From Polytrichum commune (lineage: Eukaryota; Streptophyta; Polytrichopsida; Polytrichales; Polytrichaceae), in assembly GCA_950295325.1 (NCBI GenBank), contig OX485803.1, positions 66,047,554 through 66,111,553 of the forward strand: a stretch of 64,000 nucleotides of DNA, written 5' to 3'. The translations under genes and the position numbers were made by a program. The notes beneath the pieces were generated by a model, which saw only the letters and a list, made by a program, of their open reading frames with translations, made no database searches and was not told where the DNA came from. The first letter of the stretch is position 1; each line of letters starts with the position of its first letter. Positions 1,747 to 52,126 of the stretch are shown here, piece after piece.

Positions 1747-2142
1747 TTCAACCCGGACCTAGGGTAAACTCCTTGACTCCAAAAAATTCTTCTCAACCAA
1801 TAAGATTGCTCGATTGCTTGATTAGTATGGAGGACTAAGTCAAGTATGATCGTGACGATTTTAGGGTTCACAAAATTTCTGCCAAGTATAGTCGTATGAA
1901 GGTCACAACAAGTAAACCCATGCCACGTGGAGGACCTCCCTCCAATACGTGGCATGCAACGATTGGTCCGTGGGGAAGGCATCTTTCGTATGACGTGGAA
2001 GCAGGCGAAAAATATGGATGTTATTCATTCTGACTGTTGGAACTGGGAGGCTGCCAGAGTTACATGCTGCCTGTATTTGAGGGCCACTTGGAGGACAGTG
2101 AGTGGGTAGTAGCCTCTCTTAGTCTCTATGTATATTAACTTA
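1747..2142. other. Intergenic, no gene seen
   Basis: Non-coding sequence between two MITEs. A short imperfect hairpin carrying a CACGTGG core lies near 1920-1953 and a TATA-like run near 2129. Neither sits upstream of a recognisable coding region, so no promoter is called. Confidence 0.3.
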
Positions 2143-3189
2143 TGCCCCCTCCCCGCCTGACTTTAGCCAAGCCTAGAGGTTGGTTCTACCAACCCGGCCT
2201 CCATGGACGTTATCTAGTGCCCAGCCTAGTTGGCAAATGATGTGGCATGGCTTAACAGTGGAGGTTTTAAGCCCCAAAAATTGACCCTCCCATCGATACC
2301 TAGACATGAGGCAAGAATATACGACCTTTTAAAGTGTGCCTCTTGCCGTTGTGATTGGTTGCTTTTTAGTCTTAGCTATGAGGGCACGAGGAGCTTCATT
2401 AACAAACAAAAACTGACCATAATGCCCCCTCCCCACCTGACTTTATCAAATAACCAAAGTCTTTCCTAAAACCCAGCTGAAGCTCCCTCAGTTATAGCGG
2501 AGGCATCCAACTATCCCAACGCACCCACAAGAACTTGCTCCGGAGATTTTCAAGTAGGTTTTAGTTAAGTAACTTTCACACATGTTCATTGTTTTATCTA
2601 CCAAGCAATCAATGTTGGGTAGTTTTTGTCCCATCCCCAAATGCCTTACTACTCACCTATCTTACCATGATCGGTTTTTGTTAATGGAGCTCCTTGTGCC
2701 CTCATAGGCTAAGACTAAAAAGCAACCAATCACAAGGGCGGGAGGCGGCACTTTTGAAAGTCATGTATTCTTGCCTCGTGTTTAGGTACCGATGGGAGGG
2801 TCAATGCTTGGGGCTTGAAACCTCCTCTTTTAAGCCATGCCACATCATTTGCCAACTAGGCTCGGCACTAGATAACGTCCATGGTGCGGAGGCCGTGTTT
2901 TTAGAAGCAACTTTTAGTCTTCGCTAAAGTCAGGTGGGGAGGGGGCATAAGATAGGTGAGCAGTAAGGCATTTGGGGATGGGACAAAAACAACCCAACAT
3001 TCATTGCTTGGTAGATAAAAAAATGACCATGTGTGAAAGCTACTTAACTAAAACCTACTTGAAAATCTCCGGAGCAAGTTCTTGTAGGTGCATTGGGATT
3101 GCCGGATGCCTCTGCTATAACCGAGGGAGCTTTACCCGGTTTTGAAGAAAGACTTTGGTTATTTGGTAAAGTCAGGTGGGGAGGGGACA
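2143..3189 (+). mobile_element. MITE family D, interrupted by a second family D copy
   Basis: Outer element with termini TGCCCCCTCCCCGCCTGAC at the left and GTCAGGTGGGGAGGGGACA at the right, flanked by TTA at 2140-2142 and 3190-3192. Removing the inner insertion leaves about 520 bp, the same size as the intact relative at 22019-22542. The TTA duplication and GC-rich inverted ends point to the PIF/Harbinger superfamily. No coding capacity. Confidence 0.8.
2423..2947 (-). mobile_element. MITE family D, inner copy in inverse orientation
   Basis: A 525-bp element inside the 2143-3189 copy of the same family. It has the same terminal repeats, is flanked by TAA at 2420-2422 and 2948-2950, and runs in the opposite direction. 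The host copy resumes directly after the second TAA, so this is a clean self-insertion rather than a rearrangement. Confidence 0.8.
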
Positions 3190-3239
3190 TTAAACAAATT
3201 TCCTCATTAACGCGTAGTTTGAGTGTGTTTTTGTGAATT

Positions 3240-3380: not shown

Positions 3381-3425
3381 GGGCCACTTCACACACGAGA
3401 CTGAGAGCCCGTGACCATTACACTT
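3381..3425 (+). mobile_element. MITE family A, left fragment split by the retrotransposon
   Basis: The first 45 bases of a family A MITE (GGGCCACTTCACACACGAG and onward), flanked on the left by TGA. It stops at CATTACACTT, exactly where the retrotransposon starts. The rest of the MITE continues at 12615 with ACTTCAAG, so ACTT is present on both sides of the insert. Confidence 0.85.
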
Positions 3426-4204
3426 TGTCACGTGAGGTGACATCGGGGGCTAAGTCACGTCAATTTAGGAGTAAATGGACTCCACTAGGAGTCCATGTGT
3501 GTTGGGATGAGTAACGGACTCCATTGGGAGTCCTAGTTAGTTGTTCGTCCACTCCATGGATGAACTCCACATAGGATTGGGGTTGTATGGAGAGGAAGGC
3601 CTCTTGACTTGCCATTGTTGTCAAGTCAAGTCTTGTGAGTGTGTTTTGAGAGAGAGAGAGCTTGTTGTTGCTTTCTCATGGCTATGGTGTAATAGATTAT
3701 GAGTAAAGCCTTTGCATTCTTTCTCCACCACTTGCACTCTTGGATTCTCCCTTCGTGGAGTGAGAGATAGCTTGACTCTTGTGTGTGAATTTTAGAGTTT
3801 CTTAAGCTTTGTAAGGAGACATTTTAGTTTCTTAAGCTTGGAGAGAGAAACCCTCATACTTGACAACAATTGTATTCAAATTTTTCATTTTTGGTTGTAT
3901 TTCTGAGCTAGAATGGTCCAGTATTGAGAGCAAATGAGTGATACAAGTGTTTGAAAGCTTAGTTTGTCATTTCTTGCAACCCTCAAGAAGATTTTGAGAG
4001 AAATCTTCCCATTTTTCTTTTGTTTTTTCTTTGTGTTTTCTTCAAGTGTTGATGGTTGAATCTTGAGATTCCATTTGGTCTCAAGATTCTCAAGTCACAT
4101 CATTCTTGCTTGCAATTTGTAAAAGCAAAGTTTAATTTTTTTTAAAAATTTACAAACAAACACAAACCAAACTTAAAATCCGAATTTTATTTTTATTTTT
4201 TTTT

Positions 4205-4395
4205 GAAGCTCCGGAGCTCCACGGACACTCTTGGAGCTCCTGGAGCTCCAATTCTGCACCCTGGGGCGGCAAAATCCCGGGGCGGGGGGCGGCTAATCCC
4301 GGGCCGGGCCCCACGGCGGGCGGCGCCAGCCGGGCCCCGCGGCGGCGTGGCAGCGGGCCGGGGGCGGGCGGGCGGCGCCAGCCTGGCCCCCCTTT
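4205..4395. repeat. Extreme GC-rich island inside the leader
   Basis: About 190 bp of near-pure G/C between very AT-rich flanks. It contains repeated GGCGGCGCCAGC units, CCCGGGGCGG runs and a palindromic GGAGCTCCTGGAGCTCC. Reading frames through it give only proline, alanine, arginine and glycine repeats, so I take it as non-coding structure and not as a gene. Confidence 0.7.
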
Positions 4396-4419
4396 CAAGG
4401 TGAGCCTTCATTTGCTAAT

Positions 4420-4670
4420 GTTATTTAAGTTAATTAGGTTAGTTAATTAGTTAATTAATTAGGATAATTAAGTTAGTTAATTAATTAGGTTAATTAAGAT
4501 TAGTTAACTTAATTAGTTAATTAGGTTGGTTCATTAAGTTAATTAATTAAGTTAATTAGCTTAATTAAATTAGGTTCATTAGTTTAAGTTAATTAAGTTA
4601 CGTTGAGTTAAATTAAATTAATTAAGTTAATTCATTTAAGTTAATTAAGTTAATTAAGTTAAAGTTTTTT
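4420..4670. repeat. TTAATT-rich low-complexity tract
   Basis: Roughly 250 bp built from variants of GTTAATTAA, with the unit drifting in length, followed by T-rich runs to about 4760. It is simple-sequence DNA within the retrotransposon leader. Confidence 0.8.
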
Positions 4671-4799
4671 TTATTTTTTGGTTTTTTGTTTTTGGTTTTT
4701 TGTTTTTGTTTTGTTTTGTTTCATTAAAACAATTATTTTATTTTATTTTATTTTATTTTCACATTTTTACTTTCACCTTTCACACTTGGCATCCAATTC

Positions 4800-5105
4800 T
4801 CACAAACTTTGAGGTTCAAATTTGGGGGCATACTAGCTCCAAACGGAGTGAAATTTGAGCCTATCTTGTGTGAAATTTGCCAAGGAATCCAATGGTGTAA
4901 TTGGATTGTTGATTGGAATTCAAAATCATTGCTGAAATTATTAATTTCAACGCTGATTTTTGTTTTTGGGAGCAAATTAACTCCGAACGGAGTGAAATTT
5001 GAGCCTAATTTGTGTGAAATCTTCCTAGGAGTCCATTGGTGCACTTAGTTTGTTGATTGAAGTCCATAATCACCTTGGAAATGAGCCTTTTCAACGCTGA
5101 TTTTT
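4800..5105 (+). repeat. Two-copy tandem repeat, period about 144 bp
   Basis: AACGGAGTGAAATTTGAGCC occurs near 4842 and again near 4986. Each copy is followed by similar TTGTGTGAAAT text and each ends at TTTCAACGCTGATTTTT. The copies have diverged noticeably. Tandem repeats of this size are common in untranslated leaders of plant LTR elements. Confidence 0.7.
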
Positions 5106-5260
5106 CATTTTAATTACCAATCTCAAACCTTTGCACAATTTTGGAATTCTGGGGGCATAAACACTTGGCATTTGGCAAGGGATTGCCATTTAGATAGCCC
5201 GCAACAGGTGCAGGTTGCCATTACCTTGTAGATAGTTGCAGGTACTCAAGTGATTATTTT

Positions 5261-6094
5261 ATGGTGCAAACTAGGAGCCGATATTATCGATCTCCATCAC
5301 CAGATTACTTGGAGGACGTGCATACCACAAATCTGGAGCCAGAGGTAGATACCAACGAGGCTTTTGAGCCTATTTCGGCGTTGGACACTACTAGTAGGCT
5401 TCGGATTTGGAGTGTCGGCACGTTCGACGAAATGGAGGACGATCGCCACAATTCAGTGCGTGATCGGTTTTCAGGTCGAGCTGGGGGCATTTCCTTGCCC
5501 GATTGGAAACTCCGGTTTCGTACCTGGATTAAGGAGAAACGTCAAAGGTCTTCCAATTTCAATGATTGGTATGCCTTTGAACTTCTGCCTCAGCATTTGG
5601 AGTATGAGGCACTCCAAACTTATGAACGCTGGACAGAGGGTCATCAGCGACAACTTCGGGAGGTGGAGCAGTATTGGGAGGCTCGGGTTGAGCTCATTTC
5701 AACCCTTAAAGATGGGGCGATTGCTACCTTAGCTCCACCCACCTTAAAGGAGGAGGAATCGCCGGCGGAGTCTAAGGACACGGAACTGGCACTTGGGCCA
5801 ATGGTGGCTAGCAGTAGCACGGCAACCCTTTCACGGGTGGCACATGCTACACAGGCAACATTGACGGATGTTGGTCCACCACCTCCGTTTAATCCCCTTA
5901 CTGAATTTGTCGCACATTTGGAAGTGGAGTATGGTGGGTTTCGGCGAGACCAGATGCAGCGCATCCAGGATTTCCGCCGAGAGAAGGATGATACTCCACG
6001 GACCATTCGTGTTGGGGTTGTGGAGAAGCTGGTCATTCGAAGAATGATCCCAATTGTCCTAAGAAGAAGAAAACTCAGCCTTTGGGAAAATTAA
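5261..6094 (+). CDS. gag: Retrotransposon Gag, capsid part
   Basis: A 277-residue frame beginning MVQTRSRYYRSPSPDY. Residues 70-150 contain the tryptophan- and leucine-spaced helical pattern of retrotransposon Gag capsids (DWKLRFRTWIKEK, then DWYAFELLPQHLEYEALQTY). The middle is an acidic, alanine- and threonine-rich linker. Gag assembles the particle that packages element RNA. The frame stays open to 6094, but its last 30 or so residues are not Gag-like: the zinc knuckle that should follow is in the next frame from about 6010. The change from Gag frame to knuckle frame therefore lies between 5992 (just after a TGA in the downstream frame) and 6010. It equals a -1 shift or a 1-base deletion. 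I see no canonical slippery heptamer, so mutation is likelier than programmed shifting. Confidence 0.8.
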   Translation: MVQTRSRYYRSPSPDYLEDVHTTNLEPEVDTNEAFEPISALDTTSRLRIWSVGTFDEMEDDRHNSVRDRFSGRAGGISLPDWKLRFRTWIKEKRQRSSNFNDWYAFELLPQHLEYEALQTYERWTEGHQRQLREVEQYWEARVELISTLKDGAIATLAPPTLKEEESPAESKDTELALGPMVASSSTATLSRVAHATQATLTDVGPPPPFNPLTEFVAHLEVEYGGFRRDQMQRIQDFRREKDDTPRTIRVGVVEKLVIRRMIPIVLRRRKLSLWEN

Positions 6095-8190
6095 AACAAA
6101 AGATGGAACCAGTAAGGGCAGGGGATAATTCTAAGAAGAGACAATTGAAATGTAGCCATTGTGGTGGCACTAATCACGATGTGGATCATTGTTTCCTACT
6201 TCATCCTGAGATGCGGCCTGCCAGTTATGTCACTGGAAAGTCTCCAAGGGAGCAGAGTCTTGAGGCTAAGGTGGCAGAGCTTGAGCAAAAGCTCAAATCT
6301 TCTGCATCTTTTGCTCAAATTTTTGAGCCGCATGTGGGTGGTGGCACCTCGGGTTCGAACATGTATATGTTTGGAGCAGCTGGAGAGGTGGTGGCGGCGG
6401 CTTCTACTCGCTCACAAACATTGGCAGATGCGGTGGCTTCCACGAGTGGTGGTAGCAATGAGGTGCTACATCCTCGCCATGCCGGACCAGCTGATCAGAT
6501 TGGTCAAGCACGTTTACCTCTTTCATTTGGATTGGTAGACACCACTGTTGTTGGGGCTAAAAACCCTGTACCTTTGAGAGATGGGGATTCCATCTCGAAG
6601 GATGTTACGCAGGCATTGGCATACAAAATTCTCCATATGCCAATTTTCTCGGGTTCGGAGTTTATGGCTTCGGATTTCAAGCATGCTGCAGTTTTTCATT
6701 TAGCTGGGAGAATGTTAGAAGGTAAGGCGGCTTTGCCATCCCTTCAAGTATCCCAAGCTGTGGTTGACATACCTGTGGCTGACGAGGTGGAGGACTTAGC
6801 CAATTTGCGAGCGAGTCTTGCGGATGCGGCGATCATTGCTTTTGGTAAGCAAACTGATATTCCTCCAGCATCAATTTCAGCAATGGATACGTCATTTTCG
6901 AATTATGCGTCGGGAGCGGCATATCTTGCAGACATTTCTGCAAGGCCTGCTCGCGAACGGCATAATTTGCAACCTGGAGTTGTACGGCTGATGAACGACA
7001 AATCTTTGTTTGTCGTTTCACGCACGGATATGCCCACTATCCGTGCTACACCACTGAGAGTTATGATGGATTCCGGTGCTCAACCGGTTATGATTGGCAA
7101 AGGACTTGCTGACAGTCTTGGATTAACGCCAGCAAGCTTGGATCCTTGTCCATTCACTATTGTGACTTCAGTAGGGGGCACTGAACGTGCAACAGGTTAC
7201 ACCAAGGCACCTCTACGTTTGATTTTTCATGTGGGGGCAGGGCCTACTTACACTCATTTGTCAATGAAGTGTGTTGTTACTAATGCTACCAACTATGATA
7301 TATTTGTTGGTCAGCAAGCTCTTTACCCACTTGGCTTTGGTTTGGATAATTGGACGGAAGAGGCATGGATTAGACCGGGATGGTCCACTGGAGATGGCAG
7401 GAAGGTATTTATTCCCGTCACATTTGCAGCCACTGCTATGACTATGGTTGCGGAGGCAATGTTTGGTTGCAGCGGTTCAGTTGCAGATTTGCCTTGTGCT
7501 CCAGTTTTATTGGAGGAAACAATGGACTACACTTGTAATGTGGCAGAACAACAATTTTTACCATCTTTTCAAATTCCTGCTCGACATTTTCAGGATCCAC
7601 CTCCACCATGGCGAACTCCTAAGGAGTTATCCGACCATTGTCGACACATTGTAGCGGATTTGGAGCTTGGAGAGGCACCTCCAACTTTATCCTCATTTTC
7701 TTTTGCTCAACCCATTCGTTGGCAACCATCACCTGAAGGTATTGTCCTTGTGAAGATCTTTGGAGGCATTGGCACAGGTTTGGCGGCAGTGTTGGAAGCT
7801 GGAATTACAGTTTGGCGATATACTCATGTGGACAATGGGTATGCAGCCAACAGAGCCGTCCGACACCACATCCAACAATTGTTGTTGAGATACCCCGCAC
7901 ACTTGTCAGCCTCTGCCATTCATGGATGTTGTGGTCAACTTCCTCAAGATGTCACTATGATTAGTGATGAGGATTTGAGAAGGTTGGGCCACGTGGATTT
8001 GATTCTTGCAGGATGGCCTTGTCAAGGCCATTCGCGGGCAGGAACTGGCCAGGGATTGGATGATCCTAGGTCTAGTTTGTTTGCGGATTTGACACGATTG
8101 ACGCAATGGTGGTTTACCCACCAATCAACTCCGCCAGGGTACATTTTCGAAATGTACCATTATTGGGTGATACCCGGCACAAAGTCGTGA
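5992..8190 (+). CDS. Zinc knuckles, protease and first half of the DNA methyltransferase
   Basis: Open from 5992, with the first ATG at 6082. Features in order: a knuckle CWGCGEAGH...C at 6010-6057; a second, regular CX2CX4HX4C knuckle (CSHC...H...C) at 6151-6192; a short coiled-coil-like segment (LEAKVAELEQKLK) near 6270; a long alanine-rich region; and a retropepsin-type aspartic protease at about 7040-7380 with active-site DSGA at 7069-7080 and the late motif YDIFVGQQAL. From about 7735 a C5 cytosine methyltransferase begins: motif I FGGIGTG at 7759-7779 and motif IV WPCQGHS with catalytic Cys codon at 8020-8022. The frame runs into motif VI at IFE (8143-8151), after which the conserved continuation is in the next frame from 8154. 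Residues after 8151 up to 8190 are out-of-frame read-through. The 1-base loss in motif VI should inactivate this copy. Confidence 0.85.
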   Translation, partial: YSTDHSCWGCGEAGHSKNDPNCPKKKKTQPLGKLKQKMEPVRAGDNSKKRQLKCSHCGGTNHDVDHCFLLHPEMRPASYVTGKSPREQSLEAKVAELEQKLKSSASFAQIFEPHVGGGTSGSNMYMFGAAGEVVAAASTRSQTLADAVASTSGGSNEVLHPRHAGPADQIGQARLPLSFGLVDTTVVGAKNPVPLRDGDSISKDVTQALAYKILHMPIFSGSEFMASDFKHAAVFHLAGRMLEGKAALPSLQVSQAVVDIPVADEVEDLANLRASLADAAIIAFGKQTDIPPASISAMDTSFSNYASGAAYLADISARPARERHNLQPGVVRLMNDKSLFVVSRTDMPTIRATPLRVMMDSGAQPVMIGKGLADSLGLTPASLDPCPFTIVTSVGGTERATGYTKAPLRLIFHVGAGPTYTHLSMKCVVTNATNYDIFVGQQALYPLGFGLDNWTEEAWIRPGWSTGDGRKVFIPVTFAATAMTMVAEAMFGCSGSVADLPCAPVLLEETMDYTCNVAEQQFLPSFQIPARHFQDPPPPWRTPKELSDHCRHIVADLELGEAPPTLSSFSFAQPIRWQPSPEGIVLVKIFGGIGTGLAAVLEAGITVWRYTHVDNGYAANRAVRHHIQQLLLRYPAHLSASAIHGCCGQLPQDVTMISDEDLRRLGHVDLILAGWPCQGHSRAGTGQGLDDPRSSLFADLTRLTQWWFTHQSTPPGYIFEMYHYWVIPGTKS

Positions 8191-8700
8191 AGGATGGTGA
8201 GGACATTAACCAAATTCTGGGTACTCCAACATTTCTGGATGCTGCATCTTTGGGATCCTTTGCTCATCGGCCTCGTTGGTTTTGGACCAACTTGGTATCA
8301 CCTCGGGTGCTTTCAGCGGCGATTGCCCGCATTTCCCGCCTTATGAATCGCAAAGTGGATGACATTTTAGATGATCATCGTGTTTCCTTGGCAGTTACCA
8401 AGAATGACACCTTGCCATTTGCATTAATTAATAAGGTGGGCATTCCAAGAGGTGCACTACCTACTTTTGTGACATATCCACAGTCTTTTGCATTTCGATC
8501 TCGTGGACCTGGCATGGTTTGGGATTCAAAAACCCAAACTTATGAGGAGCCTACGGCAGATGAGCGGGAACGCGCCATGGGTTTTTTTACAGGTACCACG
8601 GCTGCTCACGGGCTTCAGGAAGGTCAGAGACGTTTCCTATTCGGGCAAGCTATGGATCTTAACAGCATTGTGTGGATAATTGGAATTTGTCTTGCTGCTC
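7735..8700 (+). other. C5 cytosine DNA methyltransferase domain, Dnmt3/DRM-like, frame-broken
   Basis: Combining the two frames gives all main C5-methyltransferase motifs in canonical order. They are: SAM-binding motif I (FGGIGTG, 7759); catalytic motif IV (PCQ, Cys at 8020) followed by GLDDPRSSLF; motif VI (ENV region, interrupted at 8152); motif VIII-like AHRPRWFWTN at about 8259-8290; motif IX-like LPTFVTYPQSFAFR at about 8457-8498; and motif X-like GQAMDLNSIVW near 8644-8676. The AHR-x-R-x-FW-x-N pattern is characteristic of the Dnmt3/DRM group. Order I to X is unrotated, unlike plant DRM proteins, and thus closer to Dnmt3. The PCQ segment reads more like bacterial Dcm enzymes than the PCN of Dnmt3. 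The enzyme would add methyl groups to cytosine C5. Domain assignment is from motifs only. Confidence 0.88.
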
Positions 8701-9044
8701 AACAACGTATAGATGACCAATTGCGTACTCTGAGGGCAGAGAACAATGGTCAGGGGGCAATGGAGCCGCAATCCAAGGATCACATTGAGGTCAATGACAC
8801 CAAGGGATTATTTCCTTTGAAACTTTATGTTGCGGAAGAGCTTCGAGCCCAACGTGTTTTTTCGGCTTTGGCCCAAGAGTTTGGAAAGTTGGAGGCCCAT
8901 AAAATGTTTCCACTTCTATTTCTTGGTGATACTTCATATGTGGGTAGCTATTTAGCTACACAAACTGATTGTAGTGGAGAGGATACGCATTTGGATTCAA
9001 GTGCAGATGATGGAGGCAAAGGTGTTGCCCTCTCCACGGACTAG
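8106..9044 (+). CDS. Second half of the methyltransferase and linker to RT
   Basis: This frame is meaningful from 8154, where it begins NVPLLGDTRHKV; residues encoded before that are out of frame. It carries the target-recognition part and motifs VIII to X (AHRPRWFWTN, TFVTYPQSF, ERAMGFF near 8570, GQAMDLNS). After motif X at about 8700 follows a linker of roughly 110 residues with no domain I recognise, ending in an acidic run (SSADDGG) just before TAG at 9042-9044. The next open stretch, encoding RT, is in the same frame directly after that TAG. The stop therefore looks like a translational junction inside one polyprotein and not the end of a separate gene. Confidence 0.82.
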   Translation: MVVYPPINSARVHFRNVPLLGDTRHKVVKDGEDINQILGTPTFLDAASLGSFAHRPRWFWTNLVSPRVLSAAIARISRLMNRKVDDILDDHRVSLAVTKNDTLPFALINKVGIPRGALPTFVTYPQSFAFRSRGPGMVWDSKTQTYEEPTADERERAMGFFTGTTAAHGLQEGQRRFLFGQAMDLNSIVWIIGICLAAQQRIDDQLRTLRAENNGQGAMEPQSKDHIEVNDTKGLFPLKLYVAEELRAQRVFSALAQEFGKLEAHKMFPLLFLGDTSYVGSYLATQTDCSGEDTHLDSSADDGGKGVALSTD

Positions 9045-9050
9045 CAATCA
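9042..9050 (+). promoter_or_regulatory. TAG CAA TCA: candidate stop-codon readthrough site
   Basis: The only in-frame stop between methyltransferase and RT is TAG followed by CAATCA. This fits the type I readthrough consensus known from tobamoviruses, UAG followed by CARYYA. A random six-base match has a chance of about 1 in 512. It would let ribosomes make mostly Gag-protease-methyltransferase and a minority of full Gag-Pol. The later TAG at 10083 is followed by AGTCGG and does not fit. Readthrough itself is inferred, not shown. Confidence 0.6.
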
Positions 9051-10085
9051 CAGGCTGTGCTGGCACCAAGTGGCAATCCTTCTATGAAGAAGGAAACCAC
9101 GGAGTTTGACGATTGGCCAATTGAAGTGGGGCCAAAGCTTACTAGTGCCGAAGCACGAAAGGTACAGGCATTTATTCGCTCTTACCGTAATTGTTTTGCC
9201 TTTAGTCTTCATGATCTTGAAGGATATAAAGGTAAACCTGTTCGTATTCAACTCGAGGACGACCACCCTATTTTCAGACGGCCGTACAGACTTAGTACCT
9301 CTGAAAGGTTGGGTGTTCAAACTCGATGTCAAGAGTTATTGGCAGCGGAATTGATTGAACTCTCCAATGGAGAGTATGCTTGTGCCACGGTTATGCCGTC
9401 AAAGAAGGATATCTTTGGCAACTGGACGGAAAAACGGATATGTGGTGATTATCGTCCAGTCAACCGCAAGACCAAGTCGGATCGATATCCAATGCCGGAG
9501 GAGTTGTTTGATGCACTAGGATTTTCTAGAATCTTCAGCACTTTGGATTTGAGGTCTGGTTATCACCAATTACCTTTGTTGTTGGGTGATCGGGTGAAGA
9601 CCGCATTTTGGGGAATTGATAAAGATGGCAAGGATCAACTTTATCATTGGAAATTTCTGCCATTTGGTCTCAAGAATGCACCAGCTGAATTTCAGCGGGT
9701 GATGGACCAATTATTGGCTGGTTTGCCGTTTGCTAGATGTTACATTGATGATGTTATCATCTTTAGTAGCAGTCCACATGATCATGTGAGACATTTGCAA
9801 GCGGTATTTGAACGACTTCAACGGTGGGGACTCCGTTTACATCATGGAAAATGTAAGTTTTTCCATAATCAATTGCCCTATTTAGGCCACATGATTGTTA
9901 CTGGCGGTCTTGGTGTGCAACAGGCGAAGGTGGATGCTTTGCACAAAATTCCCGCAGCTAGTGATGTATCACGGCTTCGTGCATTTCTAGGATTGGCAAA
10001 TTATTATAGGAGGTTTGTCAAAAACTTTAGTTTGATTGCCAAACCTCTTACCATTCTCACGGGGAAAGACCAACCATGGATTTAG
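9045..10085 (+). CDS. pol: Reverse transcriptase
   Basis: Same frame as the methyltransferase C-terminus; the first ATG-like start is annotated only for convenience, since translation probably enters through the TAG at 9042. Ty3/gypsy RT motifs appear in order: RRPYRLS, ICGDYRPVNRKTKSDRYP, FSTLDLRSGYHQLPL, TAFWG, FLPFGLKNAPAEFQRVMD, the catalytic YIDD at 9741-9752, KCKFF near 9852, and the connection motif LRAFLGLANYYRRFVKNFS. It copies element RNA into cDNA. The frame is cut by TAG at 10083-10085, in a position where relatives usually have tryptophan (PWI then a stop before SREQQQTFDTLK). This is most simply a TGG to TAG nonsense mutation. Confidence 0.93.
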   Translation, partial: QSQAVLAPSGNPSMKKETTEFDDWPIEVGPKLTSAEARKVQAFIRSYRNCFAFSLHDLEGYKGKPVRIQLEDDHPIFRRPYRLSTSERLGVQTRCQELLAAELIELSNGEYACATVMPSKKDIFGNWTEKRICGDYRPVNRKTKSDRYPMPEELFDALGFSRIFSTLDLRSGYHQLPLLLGDRVKTAFWGIDKDGKDQLYHWKFLPFGLKNAPAEFQRVMDQLLAGLPFARCYIDDVIIFSSSPHDHVRHLQAVFERLQRWGLRLHHGKCKFFHNQLPYLGHMIVTGGLGVQQAKVDALHKIPAASDVSRLRAFLGLANYYRRFVKNFSLIAKPLTILTGKDQPWI

Positions 10086-12182
10086 AGTCGGGAACAACAA
10101 CAAACATTTGATACATTGAAGCAGAGGCTCGGTTCAGCGCCAGTGCTTCGACGCCCGGATGTGTCTAGAGCTTTTCAATTGCACACGGATTGGAGTGCAG
10201 TGGGATTGGGAGCGGTATTGACACAGAAAGATGAAGAGGGAAAGGAATATGTGATGGCTTATGCATCTAGAAGTAATAATAGTGCGGAATCTAATTATTC
10301 TTCTTATGAAGGCGAGGCCTTGGCGGCCGTTTGGGCCAATGCACATTTTCGACCTTATTTGTATGGGCAGAAGTTTACTTTGGTGACTGATCATCAGCCT
10401 TTAAAATGGCTTATGGAATCAGATAAGCTCACCGGAAAACTTGCTAGGTGGGCATTGTTACTTCAGGAATATGATTTTGAAGTTGTTCACCGAGCAGGAA
10501 TTGCCAACTTGGATGCAGACGGATTGTCTCGCAATCCAAGTCCTTCAGATGAGGATTTAACTGGAGTCAGGTGGCATGGAGATTGTGATCGTGAGGCAGT
10601 GCCGGGTTGGCATGCTGCCACGTATCTCACAATGATGTCGGGATTGGCTGCTGAAATCCTTGTGGAAGAGCAAGATGAGGAGATTGATAAATCTCTCGTT
10701 GTTAGTAATGTGTGGGAAGACCAGGCAGTCTTGCACAAACTTCAACAAGGGATATTTCCTCTTGGACTATCTTCTATGGAGCGAGATAGAGTTAGTCACC
10801 GGATAACAAGGTTTCGTTGGGCAAACAGCTTGTTATTTCGTGTGTGGCCGAACGGAACGAGGCGCATCGTTCCAAGGCCAGATCAAAGAGCTTCTTTGGT
10901 GCGGCAAGTGCACGAGGAGCTTGGACATTTTGGAGTGCGAAGGACGCACTCTATGTTGCGCAACCAATATTGGTGGATTGGTATGTATCAACAGGTTGCC
11001 ACTTATGTTTCTCGGTGTGAGGTATGTGACCGGGTCAGGTCAAGTTTTAATATTTTGTCACCTCAACTTCAGCCTTTACCTATTATGGGCTTGGGATATC
11101 GTTGGTCTTTGGATTTTGCCGGACCGCTTACTATCACTCCACGTGGTTCCAAGTATGTGCTTGTAATGGTGGAGCATTTTAGTAAGTGGATTAAACTCGT
11201 GGCTATTCCCCAAAATTCCTCAGAATTGGCGGCTATGGCATTTCTTGATCGAGTTTTGGCACGGTTTGGAGCACCTGCAGAGGTGTTGACGGATCAAGGG
11301 AGAGAATTCCTTGGATCTTTCGAGGCTTTGTGTACCAAGGCTTTGATTGATCATCGGACAACTTTCAGAGATCACCCTGAGGCAGATGGCTTAGCTGAAC
11401 GAGTTGTTCAGACAGTTAAGTGGGGTTTGCGGAAGTATGGATTGCTTCATGGCAACCATCGCGATTGGGACTTGATGTTACCATGGATAGCAATGGGTTA
11501 TCGTTTCAGCAGGCAAGCATCTTTGGCATCCTATAGTCCTTACCAACTCTTGTATGGACGGGAACCAATTTTACCTAGCTCGGTGCGAGAGAAATTGGCT
11601 CCCGTGGTAAACTTGGATGATCCAGATGTTTGGGCTCAATGTCTTCATGACCGAGCAGCGTTCTTCCAAAAGGCCATGCCTATGGCTATGGAGAACTTAA
11701 ATATTGCTCAACATCGTGATACATTACGGTATGCCCGGATCCACAGTGGAGCTTATCGACCTCAGGTTCGTAGATTTTCCAAGGGGGATTATGTTTACTT
11801 GCAACGGGAGGCGCCTACGACATTGGATGTCAAGGCTGGGCGCACGATTTTGCGGGTAAAAGATGTCTTGCCAAGTGGTATATTATTGCTTGAAGGCAAT
11901 GATGGACGGGAATGTCGTGAGCATTCAAAGAATTGTGCTCCATGTCACCTTCCCATCGACGGCTCTGTGCATCCCGAGTTGGCGGTTGTACCACAGGGTC
12001 TGCCTTGTTATGTTTGTGGAGAGAAGAAAGGAGCTGCAACAATGTTATTGTGCGACCAATGTCAACGTGGATGGCACATGGCATGTTTGACACCTCCCAT
12101 TTTTACTCTTCCTTCTGGCAATTGGGTTTGTCCTCGTTGTCGGAAAGCCTCTCATTCCGTGGCCGTTAATGGTCATGATTGA
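10086..12182 (+). CDS. pol: RNase H, integrase and PHD finger
   Basis: Continues the RT frame after the TAG at 10083; first ATG at about 10116. RNase H spans roughly 10180-10540 (TDWSAVGLGAVL, YEGEALAAVWA, TLVTDHQPLKWL). Integrase follows: zinc-binding HHCC with His codons at 10911 and near 10926 and SRCEVC near 11011, then the DDE core with Asp in SLDFAGPL near 11112, Asp in TDQGREF at 11292-11294 and Glu in DGLAERV at 11397-11399. A region resembling the GPY-type C-terminus (KGDYVYLQ, DVLPSGILLL) precedes a PHD finger at 12006-12140. The protein ends VAVNGHD. Integrase inserts the cDNA. The PHD finger occupies the place where many plant gypsy elements carry a chromodomain and may guide insertion to particular chromatin. 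Confidence 0.93.
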   Translation, partial: SREQQQTFDTLKQRLGSAPVLRRPDVSRAFQLHTDWSAVGLGAVLTQKDEEGKEYVMAYASRSNNSAESNYSSYEGEALAAVWANAHFRPYLYGQKFTLVTDHQPLKWLMESDKLTGKLARWALLLQEYDFEVVHRAGIANLDADGLSRNPSPSDEDLTGVRWHGDCDREAVPGWHAATYLTMMSGLAAEILVEEQDEEIDKSLVVSNVWEDQAVLHKLQQGIFPLGLSSMERDRVSHRITRFRWANSLLFRVWPNGTRRIVPRPDQRASLVRQVHEELGHFGVRRTHSMLRNQYWWIGMYQQVATYVSRCEVCDRVRSSFNILSPQLQPLPIMGLGYRWSLDFAGPLTITPRGSKYVLVMVEHFSKWIKLVAIPQNSSELAAMAFLDRVLARFGAPAEVLTDQGREFLGSFEALCTKALIDHRTTFRDHPEADGLAERVVQTVKWGLRKYGLLHGNHRDWDLMLPWIAMGYRFSRQASLASYSPYQLLYGREPILPSSVREKLAPVVNLDDPDVWAQCLHDRAAFFQKAMPMAMENLNIAQHRDTLRYARIHSGAYRPQVRRFSKGDYVYLQREAPTTLDVKAGRTILRVKDVLPSGILLLEGNDGRECREHSKNCAPCHLPIDGSVHPELAVVPQGLPCYVCGEKKGAATMLLCDQCQRGWHMACLTPPIFTLPSGNWVCPRCRKASHSVAVNGHD
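12006..12140 (+). other. PHD finger domain at the integrase C-terminus
   Basis: A complete C4HC3 zinc pattern: CYVC, CDQC, GWHMAC, then W-V-CPRC, with normal spacing and the hallmark Trp before the last Cys pair. PHD fingers bind histone H3 tails, reading K4 methylation state or unmodified H3. The tract before CDQC (TMLL) lacks an obvious aromatic-cage tyrosine, so binding to unmodified H3K4 is at least as likely as to H3K4me3; that is inference. Confidence 0.9.
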
Positions 12183-12614
12183 GAATTTTGTGGATGTTTA
12201 CCTCATGTTTTAGTGGTGAAGTTGTTATTTAGTTGGTTGGAAATTTTATGGAATTAAGACCATATTTAAAGAGTTATCCAAGAATTCAACATTAAATGGT
12301 TGAAGGCGATTAAGGATGGGGCTCAAATTGCACCCAGCCTATAGTTCTTGGATTACTTTCTCAATCATGAGTTTAATTCCTTAGATTACCACTACCCAAT
12401 TGAATATGTATAGATGTAGCAACAACTTCATCATGTTCAACAACTCTACCGATGAGTGTGTATGTTCCTAGCCGATTGGAGGGGCTCCTTATCTGCTAGT
12501 GGGGGCACTTGAAGAGGTGGTTGTTTAGCATTTTAGTTTGCTATTTTATTTTGCTAATTGATGTTGACGACGACACTCGATCTGTTGTGTTTAACGATCT
12601 TAGTTTACACGACA
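12183..12614 (+). other. Retrotransposon 3' region with possible polypurine tract
   Basis: 432 bp from the last stop to the MITE junction. AGTGGGGG at 12499-12505 resembles a polypurine tract, which would leave about 107 bp as the remnant of a 3' LTR ending GACA. That stretch has no counterpart that I can see in the 5' leader, so a normal LTR pair is not supported. The rest is AT-rich, without genes. Confidence 0.5.
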
Positions 12615-13075
12615 ACTTCAAGAACTCTCATTGGTGGAAAAGGCGGAGCCGGGCCGAGTTTGCTTCACACTACGCTGGAGGGACCAACGGAGTGTGTGAA
12701 TGCAAGATGGATGTAGTCTCTACATGGATGAATTCCTACGTGGCATCAAATGGATCATGTTTCATGGTCATTTGGACTATTTTCAAAAACCATCTTTTGG
12801 AGTTAGGTCTAACACAAAATTGGGAGGTCATGGCACTCCGAACAGTCACAACCGTTGACGTATTCTATTTTATCATGTGTGAGGAACCGCATGAATAGAA
12901 ATTCATTGAAATATCATTTGGTTGAGGGCCCGAATACATATGACTTCACACTACACTTGAGGTCCGTGACCACACTACATGATTTTGGAGGTGTCTTGGG
13001 ATAGTCTTTTGACACTTTCTTTTGGGCTCGCACGATTTCATGGTCACGGCTCTGGGCTCGTGTGTGAAGTGACCC
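12615..13075 (+). mobile_element. MITE family A, right fragment split by the retrotransposon
   Basis: Continues the fragment ending at 3425: ACTTCAAGAACTCTCATTGG matches the family sequence at the expected place. It ends GTGTGAAGTGACCC with TTA following at 13076. The left flank of the joined element is TGA, one base different from TTA. Combined length is about 506 bp, equal to intact copies. Confidence 0.85.
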
Positions 13076-13078
13076 TTA

Positions 13079-13200
13079 GAGTATATACCTCAAATTCATA
13101 AAGAAAAAAACCCAATAGTTGTCAACATGTGACCGGTTGGACTTGGAAACACTAGGATCTCAACCAATTGTGCCCAAAATTTTCTCCCTGGGCACAGGGC
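13079..13200 (-). repeat. Dispersed repeat family R, right part of the split copy
   Basis: Resumes the repeat broken at 3380: ACCTCAAATTCATAAAGAAAAA, then GACCGGTTGGACTTGGAAAC and CCAATTGTGCCCAAA, in the same order as the unbroken copy at 49738-49960. This makes a three-level nest of repeat, MITE and retrotransposon. Confidence 0.7.
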
Positions 13201-15846: not shown

Positions 15847-16391
15847 CAGTAAAAAAAATTATATGCAAACACATGCTTTGTCAAGTGCTACGATGAATAG
15901 GGTTGGTACTTTCAGTGCATAGTACTCCTAGAATAGTATTTTTAATGAATATGGTAGTATTGGGACAAACATTACTTCCTAGATCTTTTGGTGGCAATAC
16001 TTTCATAGCGTAAAGCAATTCAATATCACCTTTGTTAATTTCCCTTACACACATTATTAGCCCTCCATCACGTACTGGAACAATCAATGTAGTCTCACAT
16101 TGAGTAGGCTCACTACTACACTTGTTTATGGTACTTAGCGTCACTTACAATTTGGAATCATGCAATGCTAAGCTAACATTTTGCTACATATTTCAATTTG
16201 AAGTGATTAAAGTCAAAATACTTTGTTTGGTTATTTTCAGAATATAAATAGCATTCAGTGGTAAAATATAGTACATGTAAAAAGTTACAACAATGTGTAA
16301 TTTTAAATAGTAACATTGTGACATTCTGTGCCATAGACAGTGGAGTTTGACTAACATCACTGTCCTAACATTTTGTAGATATTCAACATAA
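15847..16391. other. Intergenic, no gene seen
   Basis: AT-rich DNA between the solo LTR and a MITE. Short open frames are unrelated to any family I know. Confidence 0.3.
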
Positions 16392-16890
16392 GGGCCACTT
16401 CGCACACGAGCCAAGAGCCGAGACCATGAAATTGTGAGAGCCCAAAAGAAAGTGTCCAAAGGCCGTCCCAACACACCTCCGAAATCATGTAGTGTGGTCA
16501 TGGATCCTCAAGTGTAGTGTGAAGTCATATGTGACCAAGCCCGCAACCAAATGCTATTTCCATGAATTTTTATCCATGCGGGTCCTCGCACATGGTAAAA
16601 TAGAATAAACCAACGGTTATGAGCATTCGGAGTGCCATGGTCTCCCAGTTTTGTGTTAGGCCTACCTCCAAGAGGTGGTTTTTGAAAATAGTCCAAGTGA
16701 CCATGAAACCCGATCCATTCGATGCCGTGTAGAAATCCATGTAGACTTTACATCCATCTTGCATTCACATACTCCATTGGTCCCTCAAGAGTAGTGTGAA
16801 GTGAACTTGGACCGGCTCCGCCTTTTCCACCAATGAGAGTACTTGAAGTGTAATGGTCACAGGCTCTCAGTCTCGTGTGTGAAGTGGCCC
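16392..16890 (-). mobile_element. Harbinger-type MITE, family A
   Basis: Full-length 499-bp copy in the opposite orientation to the one at 1270. Termini are GGGCCACTTCGCACACGAGC and CTCGTGTGTGAAGTGGCCC. Perfect TAA target duplications sit at 16389-16391 and 16891-16893. This copy is among the clearest for defining the family boundaries. Confidence 0.9.
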
Positions 16891-17107
16891 TAAATACTCT
16901 CACGTTTTGTAATAATAACTGCACTATTGGACAAAATCACAATGTTAAATAGATTCCTGCCATACATTAGTAATAAAGCGCACTCACACAACAATAATAG
17001 ACACATCTACACAACCTCATGTGTCAGTTTGTAAATTTGACGGTATCTTGGAACCATGTACTTAGTCACAATATATAGAAGGTCATACTAATAACCTAAG
17101 ACACAAT

Positions 17108-21830: not shown

Positions 21831-22018
21831 ACAAATTTATGGGCATAGTTTTCTACTAGTGTTGTCACCACCACATGCATGAGTAACCGTTGGTGTGTAG
21901 CTCGTGCCCCATTGAATACCAACTCCACGTATTTCTAATTCAACTCGAAGACAAGGAGTTTGTTGTTCCCAATGCAAAGATGCTAATGGAGTTGCACTTA
22001 GTGCTTGGGCCTCACTTA

Positions 22019-22542
22019 GGCCCCCTTCACACCCGACTTTAGCTAAGACTAAAAGTTGGTTCCAACAACCCGACCTTCACACCATCAACATTATCTAGTG
22101 CCCAACCTAGTTGGCAAATGATGTGGCATGGCTTGAAAGTGGAGGTTTTAAGCCCCAAGCACCCACCCTCCCATCAGTACCTAAACACGAGGCAAGAATA
22201 TAGGGCCTTTAAAAGTGTCGCATCATGTCCTTGTGATTGGTTGCTTTTTAATCTTAGCTATGAGGGCACGAGGAGCTTCATTAACAAAAACCGATGGTAA
22301 TTAGGATAGGTGAACAGTAAGGCATTTGGGGATGGGACAAAAACTACCCAACATTCATTGCTTGGTAGATAAAACAATGAGCATGTGTGAAAGCTACTTA
22401 ACTAAAACCTACTTGAAAATCTCCGGAGCAAGTCTTGTAGGTGCATTTGGATAGCCGGATGCCTCCGCTATAACCAAAGGAGCTTTACCTGGCTTTTAGG
22501 AAATACTTTGGGTCTTAGCTAAAGTCAGGTGGGAAGGGGGCA
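22019..22542 (+). mobile_element. MITE family D, intact copy
   Basis: 524 bp with ends GCCCCCTTCACACCCGACTTTAGC and its complement, flanked by TTA at 22016-22018 and 22543-22545. It aligns throughout with the outer element at 2143-3189 once that element's insertion is removed. Confidence 0.8.
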
Positions 22543-23123
22543 TTAGCAAAGTGGATGAGTTGAATAATGTTACGAGATTCAATCGAAGGAACAAAAGATC
22601 AAATGAAACTGAAGGGGTTCATGTCATGACAACAATTGAGTATTTTGGGGGGTCAAGCATGGCTTAAGTGCAAGCTTGTGATGTTCTACACTACCTAACT
22701 CGTGTGGAGGAGAAGACCACCTTCTTGAAAAAAGATTGCTCTCTTTAATAGGTGTGCGTTTCTCAAGCATCTAAGATTTGGTGTAAATGATCTACGTGAC
22801 AATAGACATTCATTGTCAACCCTCCCATTCTCAAGTATCTAAGCATTGTGGTGAGTAACCTAGTTGCGAATTGGCTTTCCTTGCTTGGTACAAACATTGC
22901 CGCTATCAATTCATATGCACTTTGTGACACATCCTTCATGTGGGCTCACAGGGTTGAATGAAACAATAGGAAATTGTTATTGGGTCCACTTCGGGGTTAT
23001 ATGCCCTTATTGTAAAAAAACACCCGTTATTGCATTGCACCCCATTGCTTTAAGGAAGAAGAAAACTAGTTTCATATGCATGGTCAATCTTTTTGGCTCG
23101 TCGGTCAGAGTAAGTAGTACTTA
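22543..23123. other. Intergenic, no gene seen
   Basis: Unannotated AT-rich DNA between two MITEs, without recognisable coding or repeat structure. Confidence 0.3.
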
Positions 23124-23602
23124 GGGCCACTTCGCATATGAGCCAAGAGTTGTGACCATGAAATTGTTTTCAAAGGCCCAACACAAAGTTTTCAAAGGCC
23201 GTCCCAACACACCTCCAAAATCATGTAGTGCGGTCACAGATCTTCAAGTGTAGTGTGAAGTCGTATGTGACCGGGCCCTCCACCAAATGCTAATTCAATG
23301 AATCTCTATTCATGTGGGTCCTCACACATGATAAAATATAATAAATTGACGGTTGCGAGCATTCGGAGCGCCATGGTCTCCAAGAGATGGTGTTTGAAAA
23401 CAATCCAAATGACCATGAAACGTGATCCATGTGATGCCATGTAGAAATTCATGTAGACATTACATCCACCTTGCATTCACATACTCCATTGGTCCCTCAA
23501 GCATAGTGTGAAGTGAACTTGGACCGGCTCCACCTTTCCCACCAATGAGAGTGCTCAAAGTGCAATGGTCGCGGGCTCTCAGTCTCGTGTGTGAAGTGGC
23601 CC
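23124..23602 (-). mobile_element. Harbinger-type MITE, family A
   Basis: 479 bp from GGGCCACTTCGCATATGAGC to CTCGTGTGTGAAGTGGCCC, with perfect TTA duplications at 23121-23123 and 23603-23605. Confidence 0.88.
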
Positions 23603-23781
23603 TTAGGGTGTCCCAATGTAAATGTTATGCATGCAAGTTCAAGTCTCTCATCCAATGCTCCTGATAACTGGGCGACTAACTGAGAACAATGCACAAACAA
23701 TTGACTGCACTTGTTGAAAAGTTCAAAGGAACAAGCAAAAGACTCGGTCCACAACTAGCAAAGATTTCCACCTTTCATTAA

Positions 23782-27391: not shown

Positions 27392-27519
27392 TAATTTTCT
27401 TCACCGAAATGGCCGGCACACGTAAGAATGTCGTTTTACTAATCCGTCTCCCATACGTCAAGCTTTTGCATTGCAATCAAACGGGTCTACTCCAAACCAA
27501 TACTCCATTCATCATATAA

Positions 27520-28011
27520 GGGCCACTTCGCACAAGAGCCAAGAGCCGTGACCGTGAAATTGTGAGAGCCTAAAAGAAAGTGTTCAAAGGTTGTCCCAAG
27601 ACACCTCCAAAGTCATGTAGTGTGGTCATGGATCTTCAAGTGTAGTGTGAAGCCATATGTGACTGGGCCCTCAACCAACTGCTATTTCAATGGATTTGTA
27701 TTTATCACATGATAGAATAGAATAAATCGAAAGTTGTGAGCGTTCGGAGTGCCATGGTCTCCTGGTTTTGTGGTAGGCCTACCTCCATGAAGTGGTTTTT
27801 GAAAATAGTCCAAGTGACCACAAAACATGATCCATTTGATGTCATGTAGGAATCCATGTAGGCTATACATCCATCTTGCATTCACTTATATACTCCATTG
27901 GCCCCTCAAGCGTAGTGTGAAGCGAACTTGGATTGGCTCCGCCTTTTCCACCAATGAGAGTGCTTGAAGTGTAATGGTCACGGGCTCTCAGTCTCGTGTG
28001 TGAAGTGGCCC
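27520..28011 (-). mobile_element. Harbinger-type MITE, family A
   Basis: 492 bp, GGGCCACTTCGCACAAGAGC to CTCGTGTGTGAAGTGGCCC, with perfect TAA duplications at 27517-27519 and 28012-28014. Confidence 0.9.
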
Positions 28012-28269
28012 TAAGCTTAGTTGAGCCGAGGGTGCATATTTCGTAGGTGAAGGTTGCTATTATATTATTGACAAGGATAAATATTTTAACAGGCCCACAG
28101 CCCAAGCCTAGCCAATAACCGAGTTGCATTATTGGAAGGCTGGTCCATGTTGTAAGTACTCCTTGACACGTGTCATCTTCCTATTACCCGATGCCTTCGA
28201 CTCATCACATAGGACTGCTAACTTAAGCTTATTAGTTGGACCCACCGAAGGCCTTATGTGACACACTTC

Positions 28270-42510: not shown

Positions 42511-42733
42511 ATTAGGAAACTAGGTACACTTAATAATTCGATCCAATCCCAATACGGATCGAATTCCAATAAGGGGATGTGGCTTCGCCCTAAAACGACA
42601 TCTTTTGAATCAATTCCTTTGGGATTACTAGCTCTCCTCATATGAAATTGGACATTTCTCCGAGCCTCCACTATGCACTCACCGAGCTCCCTTTGAACCT
42701 CCACAAAGGATACACCGACCGAGCTTCCATTAA

Positions 42734-43239
42734 GGGCCACTTCGCACACGAGACTAAGAGCCCATGACCATTACACTTCAAGCACTCTCATTGGTGGAAA
42801 GGGCGGAGCCGGTCCAAGTTCACTTCACACTACGCTTGAGGGACCAACGGAGTATATAAGTGAATGCAAGATGGATGTAGAGTCTACATGGATTCGTACA
42901 TGGCATCGAATGGATCATGTTTTATGGTCACTTGGACTGTTTTCAAAAACCACCTTTTGGAGGGTAGCTCTAACACAAAACCGGGAGACCATGGCACTCC
43001 GAATGCTCACAACCGTTGATTTACTTTATTTTTTATATGTGTGAGGGCCCGCGTGAATAGAAATTCATTGAAATAGCATTTGGTGGAGGGTCCGGTCACA
43101 TATGACTTCACACTACACTGGAAGGTCCGTGACCACACTACATGGTTTTAGAGGTGTGTTTGGAGTGGCCTTTCGACGTTTTCTTTTGGGATCTCGCAGT
43201 TTCACGGTCACGGCTCTTGGCTTGTGTGTGAAGTGGCCC
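42734..43239 (+). mobile_element. Harbinger-type MITE, family A
   Basis: 506 bp, GGGCCACTTCGCACACGAGA to GCTTGTGTGTGAAGTGGCCC. The left flank is TAA and the right TGA, one substitution apart. Confidence 0.85.
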
Positions 43240-43811
43240 TGAGTTTTGCTAAACCTTCCTCATTCATTAAATTCTGACATGCATTACCCGGGTCCTATTA
43301 CCACTCAAAGACAGTGTCCACAACACCTCTATCGCATGACGGGGCACAAAGCCAACAAATGTGATAACTTAGGGTTGCTTTACACCTAGAGGCCGGGCCA
43401 ATTTGTTGTGTAAGAGGCTTGAAATCCTCGCTTGTGATTGGTCAAAAGGCTGAAATCGGCCCCAACCCTTTTACACCTAGAGGCCGGGCCGATTTGGTGG
43501 TATGAATTTTTTAATCAAAAAATGGATGGTCTGACACGGCCCGAGCTCACTCAAATGGGTGCACCGAAAATGGAAGGCCAATTCATGGCCTAGGGGCCAA
43601 TGTCAGATTTTAATAAAATATTTTTTTTCAAATAAAATATATATTTTTTCAGCAAAACAACTCCGTTGGATTATGTGGAAATCTGAACGGCTCTTATAGT
43701 TCATCGTGACTTCATCCTCTCTTCTCTTCTCTCTCTCTCTTTTCCTTAGAGTTTTTCTTGCTGATTTTTTTTTGCGCTTGCAAGATTGTTACTACCGTTT
43801 CTAGGGTTAGC

Positions 43812-51459: not shown

Positions 51460-51959
51460 GGGCCTCTTCACACACGAGACTGACGACCCGTGACCATTAC
51501 ACTTCAAGCACTCTCATTGGTGGAAAAGGGGGAGCCGGTCCAAGTTCGCTTCACACTACACTTGAGGGACCAACGGAGTACGTGAACTGGAAGATGGATG
51601 TAAAGTCTACATGGGTTCCTACATGGCATCGAATGGATCACGTTCCATGATCAATTAGATTATTTTCAAAAACCACCTCTTGGAGGTAGGCCTACTGCAA
51701 AACCAGGAGACCATGACACTCCAAACACTCACAAGCATTGATTTATTCTATTTTATCATGTGTGAGGACCCACGTGAATAGAAATTCATTGTAATAGCAT
51801 TTGGTTGAGGGTCCGGTCACATATGACTTCACACTACACTTGAGGGTCCGTGACCACACTACATGATTTTGGAAGTGTGTTGGGATGGCCTTTGGACACT
51901 TTCTTTTGGGCTCTCACAATTTCATGGTCACGGCTCTTGGCTCGTGTGTGAAGTGGCCC
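51460..51959 (+). mobile_element. Harbinger-type MITE, family A
   Basis: 500 bp, GGGCCTCTTCACACACGAGA to CTCGTGTGTGAAGTGGCCC, with TAA duplications at 51457-51459 and 51960-51962. It lies about 700 bp upstream of the PMT start codon, the closest element to the gene promoter. Confidence 0.9.
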
Positions 51960-52126
51960 TAAATACCATAAATGGTGTAGAATCACACCCATTAAGAATT
52001 AATGTAGCCAGCCTAGGGCGTGCAATTAGCTCCTAGTAGAACTCCATTTCTTACCTTTTTAATTTACTGGGAAGTCAATACCTTACCTCTGCTCTCAGCT
52101 CTCGCCTGGGCGTAGAATAAGGCCCC

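Follow-up and report, generated by a model that had tools for sequence, protein, structure and literature searches.

DNA methylation is one of the main weapons of plants against transposons, and a retrotransposon that carries a cytosine methyltransferase of its own raises the question of what such a parasite stands to gain from it. The question arises in a 64,000-nucleotide stretch of the Polytrichum commune genome (assembly GCA_950295325.1, contig OX485803.1, forward-strand positions 66,047,554 to 66,111,553; hereafter the window), where an initial annotation, made from the sequence letters, had described a C5 cytosine DNA methyltransferase (C5-MTase) embedded between the protease and reverse transcriptase (RT) of a gypsy-like retrotransposon. 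Our analysis confirmed that observation and partly supported its interpretation. The element is almost certainly a decayed copy from a Ty3/gypsy-type family of the KnitGypsy-Dnmt3 kind, one that is young, multi-copy and self-primed and resides in a probable land plant. The family is large and recently active, carries its own methyltransferase and seems to insert from circular DNA. Beyond the initial annotation, we located the true element ends, split repeats, a leaky stop and a PHD finger.

The element and its methyltransferase

Between 3426 and 12614 the window carries a decayed Ty3/gypsy-type retrotransposon, bounded by TG..CA and sitting in a local repeat. Both ends were set by that repeat, because the interrupted ~510-bp unit marks the empty site: its left part ends CATTACACTT and its right part begins ACTTCAAG, which yields the duplication ACTT. 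The following features were assigned:

3422..3425: left target-site duplication, ACTT
3426..12614, + strand: whole retrotransposon copy, 9189 bp, ends TGTCACG...CACGACA, delimited by the split ~510-bp repeat and the 4-bp duplication
3426..3857, + strand: repeat A (A1), up to the primer-binding site (PBS); a second copy, A2, stands at the right end in 26 of 29 other copies
3614..3626, + strand: self-primer arm ATTGTTGTCAAGT within A, exact complement of 3858-3870
3858..3870, + strand: putative PBS ACTTGACAACAAT, adjoining the end of A
5261..6094, + strand: gag, broken near 5990-6010 relative to L002, a metagenomic relative
6010..6057, + strand: zinc knuckle CWGCGEAGHSKNDPNC, from the translation, without a Pfam match
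7060..7350, + strand: aspartic protease (DSGA), PF13650 at 2.9e-4 and 21.9 bits, below the curated cut-off of 24.3; 72% amino acid identity to L004
7735..8699, + strand: C5-MTase domain, PF00145, with a frame break near 8150 (motif VI)
9042..9050, + strand: leaky stop TAG CAA TCA at the methyltransferase/RT boundary, conserved across copies
9105..10082, + strand: RT, PF00078 at 6.7e-29
10083..10085, + strand: in-frame stop (decay); L002 is open at the same place
10086..11996, + strand: RNase H and DDE integrase, PF17917 at 2.9e-37, PF17921 at 2.3e-17 and PF00665 at 5.8e-13
12006..12140, + strand: C-terminal PHD finger, PF00628 at 4.3e-10; best solved chain CHD4, 9.7e-16
12498..12507, + strand: polypurine tract (PPT) AGTGGGGGCA, directly 5' of B
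12508..12614, + strand: repeat B, 107 bp; the window copy is without A2-B2
12615..12618: right target-site duplication, ACTT

The element thus reads A - Gag - zinc knuckle - protease - C5-MTase - leaky UAG - RT - RNase H - integrase - PHD - PPT - B (- GC - A - B). In both the window pieces and L002, the succession of protease, RT, RNase H and DDE integrase is that of Ty3/gypsy elements, and the Pfam scan identified a PHD finger as the integrase C-terminus; the same pieces gave no match to a chromodomain, the PHD finger being present instead, and none to a tyrosine recombinase (PF00589), the rve integrase being present. A repeat search between the two ends of the integrated window copy found no direct long terminal repeats (LTRs), and conventional LTRs at these positions were therefore rejected. 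No second copy of the element was detected by tblastn within the 64-kb window. The 5' non-coding region holds an AATTAA-rich repeat tract (4407-4671) and a ~144-bp tandem repeat (4821-5111).

Across 7735-8699, the segments that we take to be motif I (IFGGIGTG), motif IV (GWPCQG, Cys codon at 8020), a broken motif VI, AHRPRWFWTN and IX/X-like stretches follow one another in canonical order, as had been annotated. The N-terminal open piece alone matches PF00145 at 34.8 bits (1.6e-8; cut-off 22), and the domain read through with X at the frame break reaches 40.2 bits (3.7e-10), with DNMT3A as its best PDB chain (1.3e-7). The annotated flanks were also recovered, the RT clearly and the protease with the sub-threshold score listed above. 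The C-terminal methyltransferase piece taken alone had no Pfam match and only weak PDB matches (DNMT3B, 0.32); its identity is drawn from relatives that carry an unbroken domain. An AlphaFold model of the L002 domain, built on an alignment of three sequences, had a mean pLDDT of 43.4 and was too poor to be used.

Copies of this domain are spread through the genome. In the 407.8-Mb assembly, where of 19 contigs queried seven measure 42-78 Mb and twelve fall below 0.15 Mb, the PF00145 profile search gave at least 123 matches, found on all seven large contigs; these are the 123 scored of 353 candidates and hence a lower bound. Detailed reading covered the 20 best loci and the flanking sequence of 30 copies; the other 103 rows may include host genes. 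Every one of the best 20 loci holds this domain family, 11 of them open across the whole domain in one frame, and an open-frame length of 1386 amino acids is common to 10 of the 123 rows. A chance or lone insertion of the methyltransferase was rejected on the strength of these 123 scored matches.

A distant relative with an unbroken methyltransferase came from a contig scan. This relative, L002, lies on a contig of 9285 bp that had been binned as cyanobacterial; it shares 75% amino acid identity with the window copy over motifs I-VI, 84% in the RT and 87% in the RNase H-integrase-PHD portion, and it shows Gag, protease and methyltransferase in an unbroken frame, then TAG, then RT, RNase H, integrase and PHD finger. 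The ends of the L004 contig (CADCWO010000201.1) overlap exactly by 127 nt, giving a unit of 9158. The L002/L004 contig probably stems from a eukaryotic contaminant, which may be a soil alga or a plant; as a side observation, L004 places a eukaryotic-type retroelement in a cyanobacterial metagenome assembly, where it is likely mis-binned.

The methyltransferase domain is conserved under purifying selection. Between the window copy and L004 (321 codons, 69% amino acid identity), the ratio of nonsynonymous to synonymous differences per site (pN/pS) was 0.245 (bootstrap range 0.20-0.30), at saturation of the synonymous sites; the linkers are looser at 0.43-0.56. The gag row was dropped from this comparison, its L004 start being off by one base. 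Among 11 open methyltransferase domains of the genomic copies, unsaturated comparisons gave a median pN/pS of 0.26 within family 2 (10 pairs, range 0.18-0.41) and 0.37 within family 1 (15 pairs, range 0.23-1.13), with 0.31 between the two families (30 pairs); L028 was excluded from the alignment owing to a stop in its translation.

Where the enzyme came from was addressed with a family profile. Among solved chains, DNMT3A/3B ranked best (1e-13 to 9e-11), followed by HaeIII (3e-7), HhaI (3e-6) and 4onj (3e-6; 'DNA methyltransferase', which we take to be tobacco DRM), whereas chains named DRM2 (6e-4) matched over the N-terminal part only and the single DNMT2 chain listed also stood at 6e-4. In DRM enzymes the motif order is rearranged, with VI-X before I-V, and DRM membership was rejected on the canonical I to X order found here; the Dcm-type model TIGR00675 scored 44.9 bits, below its cut-off of 100.65. 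With the family profile, five methyltransferases from phages or viral contigs reached 43.4-54.5 bits, the highest being a Psychrobacillus phage enzyme (54.5 bits), against 50.7 bits for a DNMT3A fragment of 162 residues. In the L002 domain, residues 3-307 were matched by a phage family (3.5e-25). Searched against phages, the window domain met 339 records, each with its best place below 60% identity and one covering 80% of the query, the best E-value among the matches listed being 6e-12. Viral contigs held one methyltransferase at 32% identity and no close relative of the integrase-PHD portion or of the whole methyltransferase domain, so that close relatives among them were rejected. On these scores the enzyme may have been captured from a host Dnmt3 or from a virus-like source, in keeping with the open origin of the initial annotation. 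The bacterial-looking PCQ segment joined to a Dnmt3/DRM-like FW-x-N region, on which that annotation had remarked, need not mean a hybrid: in alignments, three of the five phage or viral methyltransferases (L084, L085 and L086) carry PCQ together with a YWTN motif VIII.

Leaky stop and split repeats

The stop at 9042 separates the methyltransferase from the RT. The sequence UAG-CAR-YYA occurs in the window copy, in L004 and in 19 of the 20 best genomic loci, that is, in all 21 readable copies (L031, the twentieth locus, was excluded since its RT start was not found); TAG is followed by CAATCA, CAATTA or CAGTTA, all within CAR-YYA, and lies 21 codons upstream of FD(D/N)WP at the RT start. Because it is conserved at the same place across the readable copies, it is not damage. 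The reading frame beyond the stop was followed in full for the window copy and L002; in L002 the first Met downstream of the stop comes at about residue 117, beyond FDNWP, which makes a restart at an ATG unlikely. UAG-CAR-YYA is the read-through consensus of tobamoviruses, the type I leaky stop (PMC3542737, in the part drawn on here). The methyltransferase is most likely part of the abundant Gag-protease product.

The repeats were compared in ten copies fetched on both sides and in 20 more fetched on the right side only, of which 29 of the 30 right ends were readable (L049 was dropped, as no right end was found). The arrangement B1-GC-A2-B2 was present at 26 of these 29 right ends, and the other three have B only, like the window copy. 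Within the 26, the palindrome GACAGCTGTC (GACA-GC-TGTC) is exact in 25 and one letter off in the remaining one. Left ends (n = 11) were searched for inverted repeats, and a pair of at least 13 nt with one arm inside A was found in all 11. The second arm adjoins the end of A in the ten copies of the Polytrichum commune genome, while in L004, where one A is seen, that end is unfixed. Between family 1, family 2 and L004 the two arms have changed in a compensatory manner. In Tf1, the RNA is self-complementary to the PBS next to the LTR-equivalent, and we read the inverted pair as a Tf1-type self-primer with its putative PBS. B is immediately preceded by the purine tract. From the positions of PBS and PPT, the conventional LTRs would therefore be B-GC-A.

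In 23 of the 26 copies, the A2/B2 junction has the LTR end given by the PBS joined directly to the LTR start given by the PPT. The three deviant junctions (L045, L069 and L077) differ only on their A side, by +1, -2 and about -21 nt, which is what end-joining would be expected to give. As a separate observation, L070 (878-1543) has an exact junction, but part of A (positions 301-438) is duplicated within its A2, ahead of B2, which may be informative on cDNA end joining. A perfect 4-bp target-site duplication was present in all nine copies tested (the window copy, seven more of family 1 and one of family 2), eight of the nine sequences being distinct; C5:26.51 and C7:19.89 were left out, as an end was not located. 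A1 and A2 were compared in six copies and proved 98.8-100% identical, four of them without a substitution and one of those four with two gap letters, which indicates that the family moved recently.

Proposed replication cycle and its alternatives

Taken together, these features suggest a cycle that, as the best explanation, we consider as a whole somewhat more likely than not. The UAG probably halts most ribosomes, so that the methyltransferase would be made at a Gag-like level and enter the particle, with RT, integrase and PHD finger supplied by read-through. Reverse transcription would be primed by the 5' end of the RNA and produce LTRs of the form B-GC-A, the A end would be joined to the B start in a two-LTR circle, and the integrase would cut this circle at GACA^GC^TGTC and insert A-coding-B-A-B, whereas a one-LTR circle would give A-coding-B, perhaps as in the window copy; this succession, from self-priming to either insertion product, has in our judgment a better than even chance of being correct. 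For a retroviral-type integrase to make paired nicks that leave 2-nt 5' overhangs, a palindrome whose two CA ends are spaced by 2 bp would be needed, and the layout A-coding-B-A-B matches the circular permutation that opening of a two-LTR circle at the B/A palindrome would produce. Whether the PHD finger would steer integration by reading histone tails is, in our estimation, evenly balanced. The generalization that a retroviral-type integrase here uses palindrome-cut circular cDNA as its normal substrate, with a circle that the Gag-level methyltransferase may already have methylated, falls just short of an even chance. More tentative again is the suggestion that the packaged enzyme methylates the cDNA before integration, so that new copies would arrive already marked, with their DNA shielded or their own expression damped; packaging with Gag and action on the cDNA are favoured by the position of the methyltransferase on the Gag-protease side.

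Several observations weigh against this explanation. The A-coding-B form could also be given by recombination between B1 and B2 after insertion, the exact A2/B2 junction in 23 of 26 copies is cleaner than end-joining need be, and the closure of L004 may be a circle or an assembly-graph cycle. Regarding the enzyme, pN/pS within family 1 rises as high as 1.13, which decayed copies in the set may explain, and the methyltransferase evolves faster between window copy and L004 than do RT, RNase H and integrase (0.07-0.13). The 20 loci were picked by methylase score and are hence uninformative on the share of relatives without a methyltransferase. The Klebsormidium nitens domain was inactive in yeast, a result that its authors call inconclusive in the text drawn on here (PMC5890265). 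Finally, the coding part (5261-12182) shows no CpG depletion, its observed/expected ratio being 0.69 compared with 0.62 for the methyltransferase domain and 0.59 for the whole window.

The chief rival is an inherited PAT/DIRS-like replication, in which the layout is ancestral, the RNA spans A1 to B2 and the integrase acts on linear cDNA with no circle opened. The same layout in DIRS elements and, as reported, in KnitGypsy-Dnmt3 (PMC5890265, legends of Fig. 4 and Fig. 1) speaks for it, as does the uniformity of the A2/B2 junction, but that junction coincides with the LTR ends set by PBS and PPT, its three odd forms differ on the A side only, and an integrase with 4-bp duplications takes the place of a tyrosine recombinase. 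The 2-bp spacer between the CA ends would also fit staggered integrase nicks on the palindrome, and we regard PAT/DIRS-like replication as possible but less likely. A stop at 9042 that arose by ordinary decay, with the methyltransferase in a single Gag-Pol frame, would accord with the other damage in the window copy, yet it is hardly credible given the same sequence at the same distance from FD(D/N)WP in every readable copy, the divergent L004 included.

Other roles for the enzyme than methylation of the element's own cDNA can also be envisaged. It might work on RNA, or as a nucleic-acid chaperone of the particle, and not on DNA, which would suit both its Gag-side position and the undepleted CpG of the coding part; RNA methylation was raised by the authors for the SymbioLINE enzyme in the sections drawn on (PMC5890265). 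The nearest solved chains are, however, the de novo DNA methyltransferases 3A/3B, far ahead of the DNMT2 chain, and we hold this role to be improbable. Somewhat less probable still is an effect in trans on the chromatin of the host or on competing DNA viruses and other elements, to the benefit of host or element: an antiviral function has been proposed for transposon-borne methylases in the passages drawn on (PMC6338049), but the enzyme is placed between protease and leaky stop in the copies read.

Besides the element, the window holds further copies of the dispersed ~510-bp repeat, ~78-88% alike (1266-1747, 12615-13079, 16391-16895, 23117-23609, 27501-28015, 42724-43244 and 51448-51966), with more diverged pieces elsewhere. 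A fold-back at 2136-3192, whose inverted arms measure 245 and 136 nt (91% and 90%), has a related stretch 19 kb away at 22014-22545 and is possibly like a miniature inverted-repeat transposable element. A plant PMT-type methyltransferase gene (PF03141), likely a host gene, has exons at 54138-57437, an open frame at 60646-61452 has a weak DUF7869 match (0.0013, below cut-off) and is possibly transposon-derived, and a 133-bp tandem duplication at 62725-62989 is 100% identical. In the assembly, 42 dirigent matches were counted, 41 of them over the cut-off, compared with 0 in 14 prokaryote controls. Dirigent proteins are not known outside land plants, and seven chromosomes of this size suit a bryophyte such as a moss, so that a host other than a land plant, with the family being simply the charophyte one in another alga, is improbable.

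Relation to known systems

According to the passages drawn on from a 2019 opinion paper, land plants have no transposons that carry DNA methylases (PMC6338049); a methyltransferase-carrying family in a land-plant genome would contradict this statement, if the host is indeed a land plant. Elsewhere, methyltransferase-bearing elements are cited as Copia and DIRS elements (PMC12344493, in the part drawn on). A search of mostly open literature, at the level of titles and abstract openings, returned none that names a gypsy element with a methyltransferase, a PHD finger and a leaky stop, or the opening of a circle by an integrase.

Cytosine methyltransferases borne by retroelements are also shared by SymbioDIRS-Dnmt3 and SymbioLINE-Dnmt of dinoflagellates, in the account drawn on (PMC5890265). 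These use a tyrosine recombinase or LINE machinery, in contrast to the DDE integrase of the Polytrichum commune element. DIRS/PAT elements share the split direct repeats A-coding-B-A-B, but here no tyrosine recombinase was matched in the window pieces or L002, and an integrase and a target-site duplication are present; to our knowledge, DIRS elements are without a target-site duplication. Self-priming is known from Tcn1 and TAR elements, and a self-primer complementary to the PBS, present here in 11 of 11 sequences, is shared with Tf1/Sushi and Tcn1 (PMC6317226, in the part drawn on), from which the present element differs in its PHD finger without a chromodomain match, its methyltransferase and its permuted ends. 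The type I leaky stop of tobamoviruses has its consensus in all 21 copies (PMC3542737, as above), although here it lies in a retrotransposon, at the methyltransferase/RT boundary, where read-through is predicted.

The nearest published kind is a charophyte element, as the initial annotation had anticipated, namely KnitGypsy-Dnmt3 of Klebsormidium nitens, for which de Mendoza et al. 2018 report a DIRS-like repeat layout (PMC5890265). By that description, within the parts of the paper drawn on, both have gypsy-type domains, a Dnmt3-like domain that lacks introns and keeps its motifs unrearranged, purifying selection and A-coding-B-A-B repeats, the window copy itself being A-coding-B only. The word PHD is absent from the main text of that paper, and the leaky stop, self-primer, PHD finger, 4-bp duplications and circle model do not appear in the parts covered, although some of them may be in its figures or supplements. 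The present family differs from the published description in its probable land-plant host, its at least 123 scored matches, its leaky stop with the methyltransferase on the Gag-protease side, its PHD finger, self-primer, 4-bp duplications and palindrome. Taken together, the data on primer, purine tract, palindrome and junctions would give a concrete mechanism for the split-repeat layout reported for KnitGypsy, and what a parasite gains from its own selected methyltransferase becomes directly testable.

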